20,573 bases of DNA, from positions 1-20,573 of IMG/VR virus record IMGVR_UViG_3300020385_000079, one strand, 5' to 3'. The translations under genes were made by a program, and so were the position numbers. Every line of letters begins with the position of its first letter. The first letter of the stretch is position 1. Shown piece after piece: positions 3,071-15,470 of this stretch. Under the pieces are notes generated by a model. The model was not told where the DNA came from. It made no database searches and saw only the letters and a list, made by a program, of their open reading frames with translations. The stretch comes from a virus.

Positions 3071-3258
3071 AGGGTGTTAAGCATTACTTACGGGATGGTA
3101 CTCTTTATACAGGTAAAACTCACAAGCATCCTGATGGAACGTTGATGACAGGTGCTCGTATGTCTAAGTCCTCTAAGAATTTATACCACTACAAAGACCT
3201 AAGTAAAACAGCAAAGGCTAAAGCAGATGGCGCTAGCAAAAAGTCAAAAAAGTCTTAA
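3067..3258 (+). CDS. Small basic protein (63 residues)
   Basis: The N-terminus, MKGVKHYLRDGTLYTGKTHK, followed by PDGTLMTGARMSKSSK, looks like two short beta hairpins built on a repeated DGTLYTG/DGTLMTG element. The rest is a Lys/Ala/Ser-rich tail. Similar proteins are common beside the other small genes of marine phages and have no assigned role. A strong ribosome-binding site, GGAGG (3053-3057), lies nine bases before the ATG. The 3' end overlaps the next gene by 32 bases. Confidence 0.72.
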   Translation: MKGVKHYLRDGTLYTGKTHKHPDGTLMTGARMSKSSKNLYHYKDLSKTAKAKADGASKKSKKS

Positions 3259-3481
3259 GAAGTGGGGCAAAGAGAAGTGGGGTACTAAGTCAGGTAAGCC
3301 CTCTACTCAAGGTAAGAAAGCTACAGGTGAGCGTTACCTGCCTAAAAAAGCTAGAGATGCCCTATCTCCTGCAGAGTATAAAGCTACAAGTGCAGCCAAA
3401 CGTAAGGGAACTAAATCAGGTAAGCAATTTGTAGCTCAACCGAAGAAGATTGCTAAGAAGACAGCAAAGTACAGAACTTAA
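3227..3481 (+). CDS. Lys-rich protein, DUF5872-like
   Basis: This 84-residue protein contains 22 lysines. It begins KSLKKWGKEKWGTKSGKP, then TGERYLPKKARDALSPAEY and ends in a basic tail (QPKKIAKKTAKYR). The SLKKW...KW opening and the GERYLP...LS..E middle resemble small proteins annotated as DUF5872; I am only moderately sure of that name. Nucleic-acid binding is a reasonable guess from charge alone. It starts inside the previous gene in another frame (32-base overlap). Confidence 0.68.
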   Translation: MALAKSQKSLKKWGKEKWGTKSGKPSTQGKKATGERYLPKKARDALSPAEYKATSAAKRKGTKSGKQFVAQPKKIAKKTAKYRT

Positions 3482-6760: not shown

Positions 6761-8866
6761 ATGGAAGAAGAATTTGAATCAATGGAAATGGATATGGAAG
6801 AAGCTACTGCTATTGAAGATGTAGCAGAAGAAGACTATTCTGACCCGTTGACAGGCCAAATTATCCAGTTCGTCAAGGATAAGTACGGCAAAGCTCAAAC
6901 AGCTCGTCAATTAGACGAAGAACGCTGGATTCAGTCTTACCGTAACTATCGTGGTCTTTATGGCCCTGATGTGCAGTTTACATCCACAGAAAAATCTAGG
7001 GTTTTTGTTAAGATTACTAAGACAAAAGTTCTTGCTGCTTACGGACAAATTGCAGAGGTTCTATTCGGCGGTAATAAATTTCCTATTACTATTGACCCAA
7101 CAGTTCTTCCTGACAATGTTCCAGACACAATTAGTTTTGAAACTAATCCAGATTTAAATAAGGCAAAAGAAGAGTCTGGTGGTTTGAATGCAGGGGAAAC
7201 TTTTCCTGAGTATATGCAGCGTGTAGGTGGGTTACAGGAAGATCTTGAGCCTGTAGCTGACAAGGTTGAAGATAATCCAGGAAAAACACCCAGTTCAATC
7301 CAACTTCACCCTGCAGAGATTGCAGCTAAGAAGATGGAAAAGAAAATTCACGATCAGCTAGAAGAGTCTCATGCTAAAAAGCATTTGCGTTCTGCTGCAT
7401 TTGAATCCGCACTCTTTGGTACAGGGATTATGAAAGGTCCATTTGCTGTTGATAAAGAGTATGCAAATTGGGATGAGGAAGGCAACTATAGCCCTACCTT
7501 TAAAACAATCCCACAGACTACCTCAGTATCTATTTGGAACTTCTACCCAGATCCAGATGCCTCCACTATGGAAGAGGCAGAGTATGTGGTAGAACGCCAC
7601 AAGATGTCCCGTTCACAGCTACGTGCTTTGAAGAACCGTCCATACTTCCGTGAGAATGCCGTAGACAATGCTCTACGTCTTGGTGAAAACTACCGCAAAG
7701 AGTGGTGGGAACACATTATGGAAGATAACTCAGAAGAAGACAGAGCTGAACGTTTTGAAGTTCTGGAGTTCTGGGGTTTTGTAGATCGGGAGATTATTGA
7801 AGATCAAGGGGTAGATATCCCTAAAGAGTTAAAAGATGCAGATCAACTGAGTGTAAACATCTGGATTGCTAACGGACAAGTCCTTCGACTTGTAATGAAT
7901 CCGTTTACTCCTGCTTACATTCCTTACTTTGCTGCACCTTATGAGATGAATCCATACAGTATTTTTGGCGTAGGTATTGCCGAAAATATGGATGACACAC
8001 AAACACTTATGAACGGCTTTATGCGTATGGCAGTAGACAATGCTGCCCTATCTGGTAATTTGCTTATTGAGGTAGACGAGACTAATCTCGTCCCAGGGCA
8101 AGACCTCTCCGTGTATCCAGGCAAAGTGTTTAGGAGACAGGGAGGGGCTCCTGGTCAAGCTATCTTTGGCACCAAGTTCCCTAACGTATCCAATGAGAAC
8201 ATGCAGATGTTTGATAAAGCCAGAGTTTTGGCTGACGAGAGTACTGGATTCCCTTCCTTTGCTCACGGTCAAACCGGCGTCTCCGGTGTAGGTAGAACGG
8301 CATCTGGTATCAGCATGCTTATGTCTGCTGCCAATGGATCTGTCCGGAATGTAGTTAAAAATATTGATGACTACCTACTTGCTCCTCTAGGTAAAGCATT
8401 CTTTAACTTTAATATGCAGTTTGACTTTGACACTGAAATTAAAGGCGACCTAGAAGTTAAGGCCCGTGGTACAGAAAGTCTGATGGCTAACGAAGTACGT
8501 AGCCAACGTCTTATGCAGTTTATGCAAGTCGTATCTAACCCAGCCCTAGCACCGTTTGCTAAAATGGACTATATTGTTCGTGAGATTGCTAAGTCTATGG
8601 ATCTCGATCCCGATAAAGTCGGTAACAATATGGCACAAGCAGCAATCCAAGCTGAGATCTTGAAGAAGTTCCAGCAAGAGAATCCACCACCAGCACCACC
8701 TCCAGGAGCACCAGGTCCACAGGGACAACCCCCACAGGGCCAAGGAGCAGCCCCTGGAGTACAGGATACCGCAGGAGGCGGGGGAGGTAACATAGGAATC
8801 GGTACAGCCCCTCAGCCGGGAGAACAGGGCTTCTCAGGTAATACAGGACAAGGTCCAGTACAGTAA
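6761..8866 (+). CDS. Portal protein
   Basis: This 701-residue protein follows TerL directly and is the expected portal, the dodecameric ring through which DNA enters the head. Visible features are an acidic N-terminus (1-27), a helix-rich start (ARQLDEERWIQSYRNYRGLY), and the typical portal-like centre with VSIWNFYPDPDASTMEEAEY and YFAAPYEMNPYSIFGVGIAE, then TASGISMLMSAANGSVRNVV. The last 60 or so residues are a Pro/Gly/Gln-rich, probably disordered tail (PPPAPPPGAPGPQGQPPQGQ then a Gly run), an unusual addition. Length fits podovirus portals (about 530-730). AGGA (6751-6754) lies six bases before the ATG. It ends in a TAATG overlap. Confidence 0.85.
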   Translation: MEEEFESMEMDMEEATAIEDVAEEDYSDPLTGQIIQFVKDKYGKAQTARQLDEERWIQSYRNYRGLYGPDVQFTSTEKSRVFVKITKTKVLAAYGQIAEVLFGGNKFPITIDPTVLPDNVPDTISFETNPDLNKAKEESGGLNAGETFPEYMQRVGGLQEDLEPVADKVEDNPGKTPSSIQLHPAEIAAKKMEKKIHDQLEESHAKKHLRSAAFESALFGTGIMKGPFAVDKEYANWDEEGNYSPTFKTIPQTTSVSIWNFYPDPDASTMEEAEYVVERHKMSRSQLRALKNRPYFRENAVDNALRLGENYRKEWWEHIMEDNSEEDRAERFEVLEFWGFVDREIIEDQGVDIPKELKDADQLSVNIWIANGQVLRLVMNPFTPAYIPYFAAPYEMNPYSIFGVGIAENMDDTQTLMNGFMRMAVDNAALSGNLLIEVDETNLVPGQDLSVYPGKVFRRQGGAPGQAIFGTKFPNVSNENMQMFDKARVLADESTGFPSFAHGQTGVSGVGRTASGISMLMSAANGSVRNVVKNIDDYLLAPLGKAFFNFNMQFDFDTEIKGDLEVKARGTESLMANEVRSQRLMQFMQVVSNPALAPFAKMDYIVREIAKSMDLDPDKVGNNMAQAAIQAEILKKFQQENPPPAPPPGAPGPQGQPPQGQGAAPGVQDTAGGGGGNIGIGTAPQPGEQGFSGNTGQGPVQ

Positions 8867-9057
8867 TGCACAATTTAAAACCTCTAGTGAATGACAAAGC
8901 TCTGTGGGAATCTTTTCTTGCAGAGATCAACTCAAGACTAGCTGAAGTTCATCGTCAGATGGAACAAGCAAATTCAGCAGAAGATCTGTACAGGCTACAA
9001 GGTCAAGCAGCTTGCCTTAATAAATTTAAGTATCTTAGGGATAAAGTAAATGGCTGA
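8866..9057 (+). CDS. Short helical protein after the portal
   Basis: The 63-residue protein is almost entirely helical by eye: SFLAEINSRLAEVHRQMEQA and AEDLYRLQGQAACLNKFKYL look like an antiparallel coiled coil. Small helical proteins of this kind commonly follow the portal in podoviruses and may be minor virion or assembly factors; I cannot name the function. The start uses a TAATG overlap with the portal, and its last eight bases overlap the 1384-residue gene. Confidence 0.72.
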   Translation: MHNLKPLVNDKALWESFLAEINSRLAEVHRQMEQANSAEDLYRLQGQAACLNKFKYLRDKVNG

Positions 9058-12000
9058 AGTGGGTAGAGCTACAGGAAAAAAGACTCAGGCTGGTCGTGAG
9101 GTATACGAAACACCTGATGGTGAAATGGTATCTGAAAAATCCACTACTTTTAAATATAAAGGTAAGTGGATTAACGTACCTACTATTCACAGGGGGTATA
9201 CCTATGACGATGACATACTTCGTATGATGCTTGATGCGGAAGTTATAGAACCTACAAGCACTCATGAAACCCAAGAGGATGCTGTAAATTCTGCGATAGA
9301 AAGAAGTGAGTCTTTAAGGTTTGATAATGACGAAGATGTAAGAGATCTGGGCAACCTTGAGTTTGAAGCTACCCTTGCACCCCTATTAAAAAAAGATCCA
9401 ATTGCAATGCTTGGATTCAAAGTTTCTCGTGCTAGGAGGTATGGTCAAGATAATATAAAACCAGAGACTATTGCAAAACTACCTGAAGGTATATTTAAAG
9501 TAGCATATAACGCATCTGGAGACAAAGAGTCATTTTCATCCCGTGCTCCTGCGTCTTATAACGGTGAATACGATATTGTTTCTTATGGGCCGAGACATGG
9601 GGCATCTTTAGATGTAATTATCCATGAACTTCGTCATAGAGGACTTAAAATATTAGCAGAAAAATACGGAAATGACGAGGAATTTCTATCCAGGTATGGT
9701 GAAGATTCTTTAAAGTTACTGAGCCTCTCTAAAGAAAGGGGTAGCAGTAACCAACAGAACGAGTTTGTAACAGAGCTTTTCGATGATCCAGAAGCTGTTT
9801 ATGTAGCACCTAATTCTGCAGGCAGTAACACAACGGAAAAAATGAGTGACACTATTCAATTTGTAGATCCTTTAAGTGCCTCTCAACCAGTTCCCGATGC
9901 TCTTGATAGCCTTAGAGAGATGGTCCATTTTTCTAAGGACGATTACAGGACAATGCGAGAAAATAAATTTAAAAGGCAATTTTTACCGGAAGAAAGTGTT
10001 AACAGAGGCAAGGCTGGTTTAAATCAGGCAGCTATAGATCTTTTGAATGATGTGGGTGTTTTAGGATTTGCAGAGGGTGGAGTAGCCAATTACCGTAAAC
10101 GTATAGTTGATATGACAGATGAAGAACGTGCAGAGGTAGCACCTGGTTCTGCTGCATACGGTAATTTTCTTGGTAATACTGGAGATAAAAAACCCCTAAG
10201 TGTACAGATGGCTGAGACAGGATTAGACATAGCCACCCCATTAGGAACTATTAGGGAAATACAGCAAGAGTTAGGTAAGAAAGATCCTAGCTATGCTTTG
10301 ATAGCTGGCATGGCTGGTTTAGAACTTCTAGGCCCAGCTGGGGGTGCCATTAGGATGGCAGCAAAGTCTGGCAACAAGGGTGTACTGGAAAAAATCTTAG
10401 GGTCTTTTAAGAAAAAAGAAGGCACTAACACTCCTGGAGATTTACCTGCTTATGACGATGCCGGAGATCTCGATAATGTGCTTACAGATGAGGGTGTAGT
10501 AGACGAGGTAGCTGAACTACAAGCTCAAAAAGATTCTGGTATGTTCAATACTGAGAACGACATATTATCTGCATGGCAATCTGGGATTTTAGATGAATCA
10601 GAATATCTTGATGAAACTTACAAAGTTTTAAAGAATAAATTAAAATACTTAGAGCCACCTAAGAGTGGCAAAGCCCCCGAGTGGTCAGATTATGGACAAG
10701 CTAAGAAGTTTGTGGATGTCTACGATGCCGTTGGAAAAGATAAGATAATACAGCTTGCCAAAGATTACCCTGAAGATGTAGACTTTATAAATAAATACCA
10801 TGCTAAATTAGGAGAGTATGCTGACGAACTTGGGATAGAACCTGAAAATCTTATAAGTGTAATTCAGGATTCTAAATCTATAGTCGGTTACACCCCTTTA
10901 ACAGGAGTAGATTTACCTAAAGCTGTTGATACTGGGGATATTTACCCTAGAAAGGCTACCGAGTACTCTAGAGACCCATTGGCAATGCCCCCTGCAATGA
11001 CAGCTACTGATAGGGCTGCACATAGTTTAGGTTTTAAAGATACTGTATATCATTTGGCAGTAAATGAGGACGAATTTACTAATTTTAGTAATATTGACGA
11101 GAGGCTTCCAGAACTTGGAGAGGGGCCAACAGACAAGTTTCGGGGAGTTGCCCACGATCTTTTAGGTGTTCATGTAGGTACAGCTAGAGCTGCTGCAGAA
11201 AGAAATAAAATTAAATCTGCAGATGTCTTTAGTAAAGATAGGCCTAGATTTACTATGGAACTTAAGGCCAGGTTAGATAAGCCTGTTAGACCTGAAGAGT
11301 TAGCTGATAGGGTAGGTTTAGACAGAAAAGATCTTACACTGACTGATGATGAATTATATTTCACTGAGTCTGATCTTAAGGATATTATTAGACAAAAAGC
11401 CAGGCAGATGAATCCTGGACAAAGTTATATCTCTGATGCTATGAGACATAAAGCAGCTATAGCTTTACGTAAAGAACTTGCTAAGGATGGTTATACGCAT
11501 ATTCCTTATGAAAATAACGTAGAGGACATGGAAAGTATAAGCTATATTATGCTTGTAGACAGACCTAAAGATTCTGCTTCTGTTCTCAGAGATTCTAGAG
11601 CAAAATTTGACCCCGATCAGGTAACAAGTACAGATTTAAGACTGGCCCAAGGAGGAGCAGTAAATAACATGAGTATGAAGAAACAAATGTCACTCTTTGA
11701 GTATGGTGGAATTGCTGACGATGGTATGAATAAAGACCCAGTGTCCGGTAATAATATACCCCCAGGATCTCTTGCTAAAGAAGTGCGAGACGATATACCA
11801 GCTATGCTGTCGGAGGGTGAATATGTTGTCCCTGCCGATGTTCTTCGTTATTACGGGGTAAATTTCTTTGAAAACCTTCGTGGTCAAGCAAAACAAGGCT
11901 TGAACACTATGGAACAAAATGGTAGGATTGGCGGCACTCCAATGACGGAGCAAGATGTTGCTCGTAATATGCAACAGCCTATGATGGCCCCTGCACCTGT

Positions 12001-13204
12001 ACAAGCTGCTCAGGGAGCTATGATGCAGTCTCCTCTTCGTGTACAGCAGCAACAGGCACCTCAAGCGATGGGTAATGTTATGCAGCAACCCGTAATGGCT
12101 AATCAAGGTACGATGGTTCAGGGTTTTGACGAGGGTACTACAGGAGCAACAAGATCTTCTTGGACTCCTGCAAGAGCACGTTACTCCTCCCCTATGTTCC
12201 AAGGTACGTCCTCACAGCAAGCTAATATTCAAACTGCTCAGGACCAAGCAGCTGCTGAGTTACTTACCTTTATGAGAACTCACTTCAATAAGGACGGAGA
12301 GTCTATTCAGATTGCTTATGAGGGTACTGATCCGAACAGTGCAACACCTAAAGCAGGTCAAGAAGAACTCTTGGCAAGCTATCCACTTACCGAAGCAGAG
12401 TATGGTGCTTATCAATCAGAGGTTAAAAAATCTAATGGTGGTGGAGACGGTGGCGGTGGCGGTGATGCGACCCCTACTCCTACTGGCTCAGATACAAGTT
12501 GGATGGATGGGATTGATTTTGGTGATTCAGCTTCTGTTAAAAACTGGGTAGAGTCTGACGATGGTTTAGGTATGTCTGCTCTTGCAAAAGGTATTGGTCA
12601 AAAGGGAGGAATACTCGGAGCAATACCTGCAGCTGTACAAGCCAATGATATCGCCAAAGCACGAGGTGTTCTCGAATACTATAAAAGTATAGGTGATGAA
12701 GAGATGGTTTCCTATCTTGAGCCTAAAATTAAGGAAGCTATAGACCAGGGTGGGTTAGTAGTTGCTGCCTTTGATAAACTAGGTTTTTTAACTGGCAATA
12801 GTTACTTTAAACAAATAACTACTGATCCAACAAAAACACCAGAAGGATTTAAATTTAGGGCAGCTAGTCAGAAGGAAGAAGTAGCTAAAAATGCAGAAGC
12901 ACAGGCAGCTGAGGATTCCGCAGCAGCAGCTGAAGCATTAGCAGCATTTCAAGATGATGATGATGATGATGATGGTAACCTTTTCCCAGTTACAGCTGTT
13001 AGTATTGACAGAGATCCTATGGGTCAAGGAACTATGTCTACAACTTATGGTAGTGGCGATGATGCATTTACTGCTACAGCTTCTTTTGAAGAAGATCCAG
13101 AGTTTGACTACGGTGTTAACGAGGGCGGTCTGATGGCCACCCCTAAACCAAAAAAGAAAAAGAAAAGCAAACCTAAAAAGACAGGACTTGCAGGTAAAAA
13201 ATAA
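9050..13204 (+). CDS. Giant multidomain virion protein: HExxH peptidase-like and ART-like domains
   Basis: 1384 residues between portal and scaffold, a place for internal virion proteins. N-terminus: a beta-rich segment and a phage-type EDAVNSAIERSESL block (76-89). HELRH (192-196) with NEFVTELF (237-244) looks like a zinc peptidase. At 386-440 is a hydrophobic, Gly/Pro-containing stretch, DIATPLGTIREIQQELGKKD and beyond. At about 640-865 is an ADP-ribosyltransferase-like domain: VYHLAV (666-671), GVHVGTARAAAERN (706-719), YENNVEDMESISYIML (820-835), AKFDP (851-855). A conserved block (902-962) contains PAMLSEGEYVVPADVL. Gln-rich and Gly linkers, seven Asp (1302-1308) and a Lys-rich tail follow. 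GG[VAIL] motifs sit at 343, 868, 886 and 1359. It resembles phage 'polyvalent' proteins. Domain calls are by eye. Confidence 0.75.
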   Translation: MAEVGRATGKKTQAGREVYETPDGEMVSEKSTTFKYKGKWINVPTIHRGYTYDDDILRMMLDAEVIEPTSTHETQEDAVNSAIERSESLRFDNDEDVRDLGNLEFEATLAPLLKKDPIAMLGFKVSRARRYGQDNIKPETIAKLPEGIFKVAYNASGDKESFSSRAPASYNGEYDIVSYGPRHGASLDVIIHELRHRGLKILAEKYGNDEEFLSRYGEDSLKLLSLSKERGSSNQQNEFVTELFDDPEAVYVAPNSAGSNTTEKMSDTIQFVDPLSASQPVPDALDSLREMVHFSKDDYRTMRENKFKRQFLPEESVNRGKAGLNQAAIDLLNDVGVLGFAEGGVANYRKRIVDMTDEERAEVAPGSAAYGNFLGNTGDKKPLSVQMAETGLDIATPLGTIREIQQELGKKDPSYALIAGMAGLELLGPAGGAIRMAAKSGNKGVLEKILGSFKKKEGTNTPGDLPAYDDAGDLDNVLTDEGVVDEVAELQAQKDSGMFNTENDILSAWQSGILDESEYLDETYKVLKNKLKYLEPPKSGKAPEWSDYGQAKKFVDVYDAVGKDKIIQLAKDYPEDVDFINKYHAKLGEYADELGIEPENLISVIQDSKSIVGYTPLTGVDLPKAVDTGDIYPRKATEYSRDPLAMPPAMTATDRAAHSLGFKDTVYHLAVNEDEFTNFSNIDERLPELGEGPTDKFRGVAHDLLGVHVGTARAAAERNKIKSADVFSKDRPRFTMELKARLDKPVRPEELADRVGLDRKDLTLTDDELYFTESDLKDIIRQKARQMNPGQSYISDAMRHKAAIALRKELAKDGYTHIPYENNVEDMESISYIMLVDRPKDSASVLRDSRAKFDPDQVTSTDLRLAQGGAVNNMSMKKQMSLFEYGGIADDGMNKDPVSGNNIPPGSLAKEVRDDIPAMLSEGEYVVPADVLRYYGVNFFENLRGQAKQGLNTMEQNGRIGGTPMTEQDVARNMQQPMMAPAPVQAAQGAMMQSPLRVQQQQAPQAMGNVMQQPVMANQGTMVQGFDEGTTGATRSSWTPARARYSSPMFQGTSSQQANIQTAQDQAAAELLTFMRTHFNKDGESIQIAYEGTDPNSATPKAGQEELLASYPLTEAEYGAYQSEVKKSNGGGDGGGGGDATPTPTGSDTSWMDGIDFGDSASVKNWVESDDGLGMSALAKGIGQKGGILGAIPAAVQANDIAKARGVLEYYKSIGDEEMVSYLEPKIKEAIDQGGLVVAAFDKLGFLTGNSYFKQITTDPTKTPEGFKFRAASQKEEVAKNAEAQAAEDSAAAAEALAAFQDDDDDDDGNLFPVTAVSIDRDPMGQGTMSTTYGSGDDAFTATASFEEDPEFDYGVNEGGLMATPKPKKKKKSKPKKTGLAGKK

Positions 13205-13247: not shown

Positions 13248-14141
13248 ATGCCTGAACTAGCAGAAGTACAACCACAGAAATCAGCAGGTTTTGTTGATCG
13301 AGGTTACAACTACGACAAGAAACGTAAACGTATCGAGGATGAAGAAGAGGAGATCAAGCGTCTTGAAGCTCAACAACGTGGCGAAGAATCTGAATCAGTC
13401 GAAGAAGAAACCTCCGAAACGGAAGAGACCAATACAGAAGTTGAAGAAGCAACGTTATCTGCAGAAGAAAGATCTTTTAAAAAAAGATATGGTGATTTAA
13501 GACGGCACATGCAAGAAAAAGAGAAGGAGTGGAATGACAAATTCGACATCTTTGAAAAACGCATGGAAAAAGAATCTATTGTTCCTCCTAAGTCTGATGA
13601 AGACATTGAACAGTGGGCAAAGCAATACCCAGATGTAGCAGGCATAGTTGAAACAATTGCTGCTAAAAAGGCTCAAGAAATGTTTAGCAAAGCTGATGCT
13701 AGGCTTCAAGAGTTAGATAACGCAAAGTCAGAGGCAGAACGAGTAAAAGCAGAGAATGCTATCCGTAAGTCTCACGATGATTTTGATGATCTACGTGCTT
13801 CAGATGAATTTCATAACTGGGCTGAAGAACAACCTAAATGGGTACAAGATGCATTGTACGAGAATGCAGATGATCCTGCCTCAGTAGTACGTGTTATTGA
13901 CTTGTACAAAGGAGATAAAGGCCTTACTAAAACTGCAAAGAAAGCTAAGGCTAAAGATGCAGCTTCTACAGTAACTAGACGGGGTAAAGCCTCAGTAGAT
14001 GTAGAGGATGCAAATGATGTAATTCGTGAGTCAGATGTAGCAAAGATGTCCGATAGAGACTTTGAAGCTAAAGCTGATGAAATTAACAAAGCTATCCGTT
14101 CGGGTAAATTTGTTTACGATGTATCTGGAAATGCCAGATAA
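13248..14141 (+). CDS. Capsid assembly scaffolding protein
   Basis: This 297-residue, strongly charged protein directly precedes the major capsid gene, the standard position for scaffold. Residues 30-75 are Glu-rich (DEEEEIKRLE, EETSETEETNTEVEE), 75-115 form a charged helix, and 145-170 form another long helix (KADARLQELDNAKSEAERVK). The C-terminal third is basic and Ala-rich, then ends RDFEAKADEINKAIRSGKFV, a typical capsid-binding helix-turn-helix-like tail. AAGGA (13236-13240) lies seven bases before the ATG. There is no protease domain, so the scaffold is likely removed by exit or by a separate protease. Confidence 0.85.
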   Translation: MPELAEVQPQKSAGFVDRGYNYDKKRKRIEDEEEEIKRLEAQQRGEESESVEEETSETEETNTEVEEATLSAEERSFKKRYGDLRRHMQEKEKEWNDKFDIFEKRMEKESIVPPKSDEDIEQWAKQYPDVAGIVETIAAKKAQEMFSKADARLQELDNAKSEAERVKAENAIRKSHDDFDDLRASDEFHNWAEEQPKWVQDALYENADDPASVVRVIDLYKGDKGLTKTAKKAKAKDAASTVTRRGKASVDVEDANDVIRESDVAKMSDRDFEAKADEINKAIRSGKFVYDVSGNAR

Positions 14142-14396: not shown

Positions 14397-15470
14397 ATGG
14401 CTTTCGCATCCGCATCAGGTTATAATAACCTGCCCAATGGCAACTTTTCAAGTGTCATTTATTCTAAAAAAGTCCAGCTGGCGTTTCGTAAGAGCACAGT
14501 CGTGGGCGACATCACTAACTCTGATTATTTTGGTGAGATTAGCAACCAAGGTGACACGGTTCGCATTATCAAAGAGCCAGAGGTAAGTGTCTCGGCCTAT
14601 ACCCGTGGTGAAACAATCGCCGCACAAGATTTGGCCGATGCCGATTTCTCGTTAGTCGTTGATAAAGCTAACTATTTTGCTTTCAAAATGGACGATATCG
14701 AGGAGGCTCACTCCCATGTAAACTTCATGGATCTTGCAACCAACCGTGCGGCATACCGTTTGGCTGATCAGCATGACCAAGAAGTCTTGGGTTACTTGTC
14801 TGGCTACAAACAAGCTGCTCTGCATGCAAATGCTTCAGCAGTAAATAATGTTGTTAACGGAACCAAAGCAGATACCGCTGCAGGTTCTGATGAATTGCTG
14901 GCAGCTAACAAGCTGATCAAAGGTTCATTCGGTAACATCACTACAGCATCAGCTGCGGATCACTCTATCCCAGTTGCTGCACGTCTGCCAGGTGCAACTG
15001 CCCTGCCAACGGCTACTGTATCGCCATCTATGGTTGTATCCCGTATGGCCCGTCTGTTGGATCAAAAGCAAGTTGATACGCAAGGTAGATGGCTCGTAAT
15101 TGACCCCGTAATGATGGAAGTCATGCGTGACGAAGATTCTCGCCTATTGAATTCTGACTTCGGTGAATCAGGTGGCCTTCGCAATGGTCTTGTCTTGAAC
15201 AACTTCCACGGTTTCCGTGTATACGTTTCAAGCAACTTGCCAGCAGTAGGTACTGGTGCAGGTACTACAGGTACAGCAAACCAAAACACTAACTATGGTG
15301 TTATTGTTGGTGGTCATGATTCAGCTGTTGCAACTGCCGAGCAGATCAACAAGACTGAAACATACCGTGACCCAGACAGCTTTGCTGATATTGTACGTGG
15401 TATGCACCTATACGGTCGCAAAATCTTGCGTCCAGAAGCACTGGTTACAGCTAAGTACAACTTGGCCTAA
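14397..15470 (+). CDS. Major capsid protein
   Basis: This 357-residue protein follows the scaffold gene and has the composition and layout of HK97-fold podovirus capsids. An N-terminal arm (MAFASASGYNNLPNGNFSSV) is followed by the E-loop-like region with GDTVRIIKEPEVSVSAYTRG, then a helix-rich P-domain (DQHDQEVLGYLSGYKQAALH), an A-domain segment (RWLVIDPVMMEVMRDEDSRL) and a C-terminal DIVRGMHLYGRKILRPEALV. No protease domain is fused. It has its own promoter, a structured leader and the strongest ribosome-binding site in the window (GGAGG), all fitting the most abundant virion protein. Confidence 0.88.
   Translation: MAFASASGYNNLPNGNFSSVIYSKKVQLAFRKSTVVGDITNSDYFGEISNQGDTVRIIKEPEVSVSAYTRGETIAAQDLADADFSLVVDKANYFAFKMDDIEEAHSHVNFMDLATNRAAYRLADQHDQEVLGYLSGYKQAALHANASAVNNVVNGTKADTAAGSDELLAANKLIKGSFGNITTASAADHSIPVAARLPGATALPTATVSPSMVVSRMARLLDQKQVDTQGRWLVIDPVMMEVMRDEDSRLLNSDFGESGGLRNGLVLNNFHGFRVYVSSNLPAVGTGAGTTGTANQNTNYGVIVGGHDSAVATAEQINKTETYRDPDSFADIVRGMHLYGRKILRPEALVTAKYNLA

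Follow-up and report, generated by a model that had tools for sequence, protein, structure and literature searches.

A candidate head cargo protein of HMO-2011-type marine podophages, with a fixed carrier and one exchangeable, GG-bordered slot

Here, we examined a stretch of viral DNA of 20,573 nucleotides (IMG/VR record IMGVR_UViG_3300020385_000079, positions 1 to 20,573; the window, that is, the whole stretch analysed) and, within it, a gene between those for the portal and a scaffold-like protein, hereinafter the cargo gene. Its product of 1384 amino acids (aa) is, in our estimate, probably a cargo protein of the head of an HMO-2011-type podophage, in which a fixed carrier would hold a single exchangeable slot between [F/L/Y]-x-[E/Q/K]-G-G peptides, with effectors that leave together with the DNA. 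An earlier note, made from this DNA alone, had read the gene as a candidate virion polyprotein with HExxH protease-like and ADP-ribosyltransferase (ART)-like modules. The open reading frame (ORF; 9050-13204, plus strand, 1384 aa) was confirmed, and the motifs lie where that note had put them, namely, HELRH at residues 192-196, GGVA at 343, GGAV at 868, GGIA at 886, GGLM at 1359 and E825. The protein is a mosaic of an N module (residues 1-92), a cargo slot (93-865), a C1 module (866-965) and a C-terminal region that closes with GGLM and a basic tail, with the following features along the gene.

9050..13204, plus strand: cargo gene, 1384 aa; candidate internal head cargo protein, HMO-2011 gp49 family
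9050..9325, plus strand: N module, residues 1-92; kept in many relatives; ends ..RSESLRFD
9326..10075, plus strand: zincin-like cassette, residues 93-342, from motif and relatives
9623..9637, plus strand: HELRH, residues 192-196, from an alignment of eight relatives
10076..10081, plus strand: GG border, residues 343-344 (FAEGGVA), joining the two cassettes
10082..10390, plus strand: start of the second cassette, with the hydrophobic stretch ALIAGMAGLELLGPAGGAI; many cargos have similar stretches (role inferred)
10391..10945, plus strand: middle of the second cassette, residues 448-632; no assigned function
10946..11644, plus strand: ART-type domain, residues 633-865, ending the second cassette; AlphaFold2 model, PDB and viral fold matches
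11645..11944, plus strand: C1 module, residues 866-965, holding GG886; RDDIPAMLSEGEYVVPADVLRYYG; very widespread, with a weak likeness to tape-measure PHROGs
11651..11656, plus strand: GG border, residues 868-869 (LAQGGAV), closing the cargo slot
11945..13123, plus strand: C-terminal region, residues 966-1358; rich in Gln, Met, Pro and Gly; variable
13124..13201, plus strand: C-terminal tail GGLMATPKPKKKKKSKPKKTGLAGKK, GG plus basic tail

The division into carrier and slot emerges from comparison with relatives, which were collected in pattern-based scans of IMG/VR (best 80 loci per scan); many of these loci are open-ended fragments and some are near-duplicates, and the counts below refer to distinct ORFs, not to independent events. 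Already in the first scan, residues 1-92 and 866-965 were kept and the sequence between them was not. A second scan, with an alignment of the N module, led to 70 distinct ORFs with both N and C1, in which the slot is shorter than 60 aa (empty) in 51 and spans 325-896 aa in 19 (16 non-redundant). The filled slots fall, by simple motifs, into eight cargo classes: ART plus zincin, ART plus ParB, zincin, zincin plus ParB, methyltransferase, and three unnamed ones. Close pairs of carriers differ in exactly this region. The window protein and that of locus L088 are 87% identical in N and 98% in C1, with zincin plus ART in the slot of the former and ParB plus ART in that of the latter; L014 and L012 (N 82%, C1 97%) have an empty slot and a methyltransferase, respectively; and L153 and L151 (N 97%) are empty and filled, with a DNA identity of 0.93-0.98 before the GG border and 0.42 beyond it. 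On a tree of 59 carriers, the state of the slot changes at least 9 times. We conclude from these sequence comparisons that residues 93-865 constitute one exchangeable slot between conserved modules, visible only when relatives are compared, and that, in near-identical carriers encoded between the portal and the scaffold or coat genes, this slot is either empty or occupied by unrelated modules. A separate observation concerns L008 and L013: the residues on either side of the ART-type domain in L013 are present in L008 without the domain between them, as would be seen after a clean loss or gain.

The C1 module is very widespread. The C1 scan found more than 580 loci; among the best 80, there are 74 distinct ORFs, with 0-1625 aa ahead of C1. 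In 36 of these ORFs scanned with profiles, the part preceding C1 matched, at E <= 0.001, LPD23 five times and DUF6782 (a putative metallopeptidase) and a methyltransferase once each; LPD23 also exceeds the Pfam cut-off in L183 and L127, both with N and C1.

In the window, the slot holds what sequence comparison identifies as a zincin-like cassette followed by a cassette that ends in an ART-type domain. The former has a zincin-like metallopeptidase signature, that is, HExxH and a downstream Glu: its relatives were few, and among eight diverse ones, HE is retained in 8/8, the second His in 7/8, and E238 together with E242 in 8/8, E238 being the candidate third metal ligand. Of the HExxH protease claimed earlier, this conserved signature stands, and the fold draws no support from the structure prediction considered below. 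Pfam has no match for the region, and comparison of its profile (hhalign) with the ART-adjacent HExxH domains of other phages gave a weak match (probability 72%). A match of the zincin profile to CpcN among solved structures (E 2.5e-4) was judged spurious, with no stretch passing alone. In L232, there are tandem zincin-like copies at 17-187 (HEYTHGG) and 298-543 (HELRHRG), the second of which is nearer to that of the window.

The peptides at the borders of the slot are a hallmark of the whole set. The motif [FYLM]x[EQKNDSR]GG[LMVIADTKE] occurs 194-196 times in the 70 N+C1 relatives, against 17.7 in shuffled sequences (maximum 28) and 0-3 in the portal, TerL, coat and scaffold sets; in Roseobacter phage CRP-13, it is nearly confined to the cargo gene. 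Cargo starts with GG in 15 of the 16 filled slots and ends with GG in 15 of 16, empty-slot proteins have GG within 8 residues of the point where the N module ends (51/51), and the C-termini of the C1 set carry GG[LM] plus a basic tail in 64 of 70 complete cases. At the first border (residue 93), the window protein has lost GG, and relative L067 keeps KGG; the GGs at 431, 961, 1186 and 1234 are not borders. Accordingly, the placement of GG motifs at module boundaries by the earlier note holds for 343, 868 and 886, and that at 1359 belongs to the conserved C-terminal tail. Taken from the window sequence alone, the case for either motif is weak: 1.0% of shuffled sequences contain HExxH, and GG[VAILM] has 7 occurrences with 3.3 expected (P = 0.04). 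It becomes much stronger with relatives, given HE in 8/8, H668 and E825 of the ART-type domain in 34/34, and 196 GG motifs compared with 17.7 in shuffles.

The sequence of the borders bears on whether they are cleavage sites. A self-processing polyprotein, in which the zincin-like peptidase cuts at GG in the head or in the cell and frees the modules, is in keeping with the location of these peptides at module borders and with the conservation of HE, the second His and Glu, and Iyer et al. have suggested autoprocessing by peptidases of this kind, with DdrB of phage P1 as the case (PMC5512222). However, GG is kept where HExxH is absent: in 51/51 empty-slot proteins (HExxH anywhere, 0/51), in 11 of the 16 non-redundant cargo proteins, and in 35 of 51 further C1-set ORFs with at least 100 aa upstream, in all of which the border GG is present (51/51). 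Because GG persists in proteins without HExxH, a peptidase acting in cis is not the reason for the motif, and the cleavage by its own peptidase suggested earlier was rejected. Moreover, the second His is altered in L262, and the annotation of CRP-13 lists no protease within its first 50 kb, although most of its genes are hypothetical. We consider self-processing very unlikely.

Cutting at F-x-E-GG by a phage or host protease acting in trans, independently of the zincin-like domain, is in line with the strong conservation of the motif at the amino acid level: the first border GG is written with seven codon pairs, and because the codons vary, a role of the peptide itself is favoured. For the same reason, a DNA-level seed of recombination is less likely, even though GGTGGA and GGTGGT dominate. 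Nevertheless, GG is preceded by various residues (E, Q, K, D, Y), the motif persists in empty-slot proteins that have no module to free, and a prohead protease is absent from the CRP-13 annotation up to 50 kb; this scenario, too, appears improbable. Candidate roles for GG are a joint, a docking peptide and a site for a protease acting in trans; most likely, these peptides are joints or docking peptides of the carrier rather than sites of its own peptidase. We found no literature on the SEGEYV-type motif and, in the literature examined, no description of a GG-bordered slot.

For the ART-type domain, a scan with five relatives gave 53 loci, and in the 34 aligned sequences H668, G706, H708, V709, G710, R718, E825 and S831, among others, are invariant; from their positions, H668 and E825 would be the strand-1 His and the catalytic Glu. 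The earlier note had placed an ART-type domain at ~640-865 and proposed structure prediction as a check. The AlphaFold2 model is confident (predicted local distance difference test, pLDDT, 84.8; predicted template modelling score, pTM, 0.84) and returned an ART fold, with H668 and E825 in 34/34 relatives. Foldseek against the PDB gave weak matches only, headed by the anti-CRISPR protein 6kyf (E 0.027), which we take to be the ART AcrIF11. The top VIA-align match is 9k3a_B, residues 1418-1600 (148 aligned residues, 4.8 Å), at Z 7.9, within the range below 8 that the tool calls common, followed by ParT, RES, MbcT, VPA0770, exotoxin A, AcrIF11, NatT and tankyrases, nearly all rows being ARTs. The viral library (BFVD) contributed eight matches at E <= 0.001, including two named polyvalent ARTs (E 1.7e-4 and 2.4e-4). 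Thus, that residues ~640-865 carry an ART fold is well supported by the model and its matches, as the earlier note had anticipated.

Family assignment is another matter. Neither the window protein nor its 34 ART relatives reach the curated cut-off of the ART-PolyVal family PF18760, and the domain was not assigned to it. Searching the solved structures by sequence with ART or N profiles gave nothing useful. No ART relative was confirmed in bacterial or archaeal genomes in one scan with one peptide pattern, which speaks only weakly for their absence there. In L089, L091, L101, L102 and L105, the same ART-type domain is found in phages of another architecture, all five with an HExxH domain of the HE[IVL][LM]HKGA type and two (L101 and L105) also with DUF6884 (Pfam); the ART and the HExxH domain recur together.

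Around the cargo gene, TerL, portal, scaffold-like and major head proteins were recognised by PHROGs.

6761..8866, plus strand: portal protein; PHROG head-tail adaptor/portal, 5e-78
8866..9057, plus strand: 63-aa ORF in the interval between portal and cargo gene, overlapping the start of the latter by 8 nt
13248..14141, plus strand: scaffold-like protein; phrog_13678, 2e-50
14397..15470, plus strand: major head protein; coat protein of CRP-13 86% identical

The place claimed for the gene, with the portal upstream and a scaffold-like gene downstream, is borne out by these matches and is typical of head-internal proteins; phrog_13678 is a family of unknown function, and the scaffold role is suggested by position and composition. 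The arrangement is constant, with the portal upstream in 59/59 testable loci, leaving aside the small ORF, and the scaffold or coat downstream in 48/48. A small ORF is likewise annotated between the portal and the cargo gene in CRP-207, CRP-9, CRP-13, CRP-603, CRP-2 and HMO-2011. The major head protein shares 86% identity with its CRP-13 counterpart and 68% with the one of Puniceispirillum phage HMO-2011, which places the window, by its structural genes, in the HMO-2011 type of marine podophages. Upstream of the terminase genes, ORFs at 1701-2153, 2165-2407, 2407-2703 and 3227-3481 include, by eye, one that looks like an M15-type wall peptidase, an HNH-like one and small Lys-rich ones.

The cargo gene also occupies this place in eleven cultured phages, where it codes for 377-1395 aa and is annotated as hypothetical. 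In CRP-2 and CRP-3, it includes a cell wall hydrolase, PF07486, above cut-off (E 1e-11 and 6e-16), joined in CRP-3 by a methyltransferase-like region below cut-off; in CRP-9, TIGR02594 matches under its cut-off. The proteins of HMO-2011, CRP-1, CRP-603 and CRP-345 open almost directly with C1, and the profile scan of the isolates detected no recognisable cargo domain in HMO-2011. Searching phage isolates with the zincin and ART regions of the window (tblastn) gave no real match. Stand-alone methyltransferase genes lie directly 3′ of the cargo gene in CRP-13 (gp54) and CRP-345 (gp61) and directly 3′ of the coat gene in CRP-9 (gp51).

These isolates are pertinent to two further explanations. The protein could be part of an ejection channel, similar to T7 gp15/gp16 or P22 gp16, with slot modules that pierce the wall or cross the membrane; the cell wall hydrolases of CRP-2 and CRP-3, the hydrophobic stretches of many cargos and the ART-type region in an ejectosome protein of phage A-4L all point in this direction, but the short carriers of CRP-235 (377 aa) and CRP-603 (438 aa) look too small for a channel, and CRP-13 has further long late genes. 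On balance, we regard a channel as unlikely. Alternatively, the protein might have an accessory structural or scaffolding role in the head, with inserts that are decaying or structural and enzyme-like modules that are not active effectors, a notion compatible with the position between portal and scaffold, the prevalence of the empty slot in the N-module set (51/70) and the weak resemblance of C1 to tape-measure proteins. Against it, inserts of catalytic families retain their motifs (ART H and E in 34/34; PF07486), and the slot modules are exchanged, not eroded; we therefore give this explanation a small chance.

The cargo protein shares traits with several known systems. Polyvalent proteins of phages and conjugative elements combine several unrelated enzyme domains, for which delivery with the DNA has been proposed (Iyer et al. 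2017, PMC5512222). Similarly, the slot of the relatives holds ART, zincin-like peptidase, ParB-like, methyltransferase and LPD23 modules; unlike in polyvalent proteins, there is a fixed carrier with one, often empty, slot and GG border peptides. The HMO-2011-type group was not found by a word search of PMC5512222. For membership in this class, which calls for at least two unrelated catalytic activities in one phage protein, the ART fold is well supported and the zincin is recognised by motif only; the polyvalent kinship suggested by the earlier note gains from the LPD23 modules that occupy this slot in relatives but not from the window protein itself, which has no LPD match in Pfam. Polyvalent ARTs follow an H-Y-D pattern (PMC5512222), with which the A-4L region is in line; the sites in the window protein would pair as VYH, HVG and E825. 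With PF18760 and with ARTs of the ParT, RES and DarT types, the domain has in common the fold, the strand-1 His and, towards its end, an acidic residue. It differs from PF18760 in missing the hidden Markov model cut-off and, by a motif-level pairing that is inferred, in having H708 in place of Tyr and E825 in place of Asp of the ARTs of Iyer et al.

MuF polymorphic toxins (Jamet et al. 2017, PMC5576092), which are linked to temperate phages, are encoded by a portal-adjacent gene with a short canonical and a long effector form and include ARTs among their effectors. The cargo gene likewise follows the portal directly in all testable loci, but no MuF domain was found in the protein (Pfam), and the effector is internal rather than C-terminal. 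The closest structural parallel is 9k3a_B, a chain of a solved pre-ejectosome with the same sequence as ORF27 of Anabaena phage A-4L; in this podophage ejectosome protein, residues 1418-1600 form an ART-type region (LYHGT...GSGTYF...DGDTTLVI). By contrast, identity is only ~10%, the motifs are of the LYHGT/TYF type rather than VYH/HVG, and, in A-4L, the gene is located 3′ of those for the tail tube instead of next to the portal. Finally, the Dar proteins of phage P1 (DarA, DdrB; PMC12810830, PMC5512222) are internal to the head and co-ejected with DNA, and DdrB has zincin-like and ParB-like domains; P1, however, is a myophage with a prohead protease, and its Dar proteins are encoded by separate genes with no slot.

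Taken together, these comparisons lead us to the following scenario for the exchangeable-slot cargo protein. The carrier would be packaged with the portal or the scaffold, and the protein would leave the head along with the DNA. Early in infection, the ART-type domain might modify a host target with NAD+, and the zincin-like module could act as an effector peptidase or free parts of the protein in the cell. Packaging and injection are suggested by the gene position, by the types of cargo that the gene carries (cell wall hydrolases, polyvalent modules) and by analogy with the A-4L ejectosome protein and its ART-type region.

Several observations weigh against this scenario. Searched alone against Pfam, NCBIfam and PHROGs, the window protein matches no family, with only sub-threshold noise such as Sigma70_r3. 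The AlphaFold2 model of the zincin-like region (4 sequences) reached a pLDDT of 37.5, was uninformative and was left out of the fold search, and L262 reads HEFTE, with the second His changed. The Z values of the ART matches are in the common range, as noted, and a PF18760 search over 20 records found 0 above cut-off, with A-4L as the only match, below cut-off. The long late genes gp35 and gp39 of CRP-13 may encode the true ejection channel, and we found no virion proteomics or infection data for the cargo gene in the literature examined.

HMO-2011-type phages have been described as dominant in the ocean and widely distributed there (PMC9038755), and their cargo gene is annotated only as hypothetical in isolates. 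As a tentative extension, for which the odds are somewhat less than even, widespread marine podophages may share a standard carrier beside the portal, with GG peptides as the common joint or docking signal for any GG-flanked effector, and the ART may represent a distinct clade with H-H-E for H-Y-D, so far known only from phages. An ADP-ribosyl hydrolase has been reported in some HMO-2011-type genomes (PMC9038755), a finding of note should the ART prove active. CRP-2, CRP-3, CRP-9, CRP-13 and HMO-2011 are cultured carriers of the gene and are suited to direct tests of packaging and delivery. If the slot is what we propose, phages with empty and loaded carriers would offer a natural comparison, and the sequences between the border peptides would amount to a catalogue of candidate effectors of marine phages in early infection.

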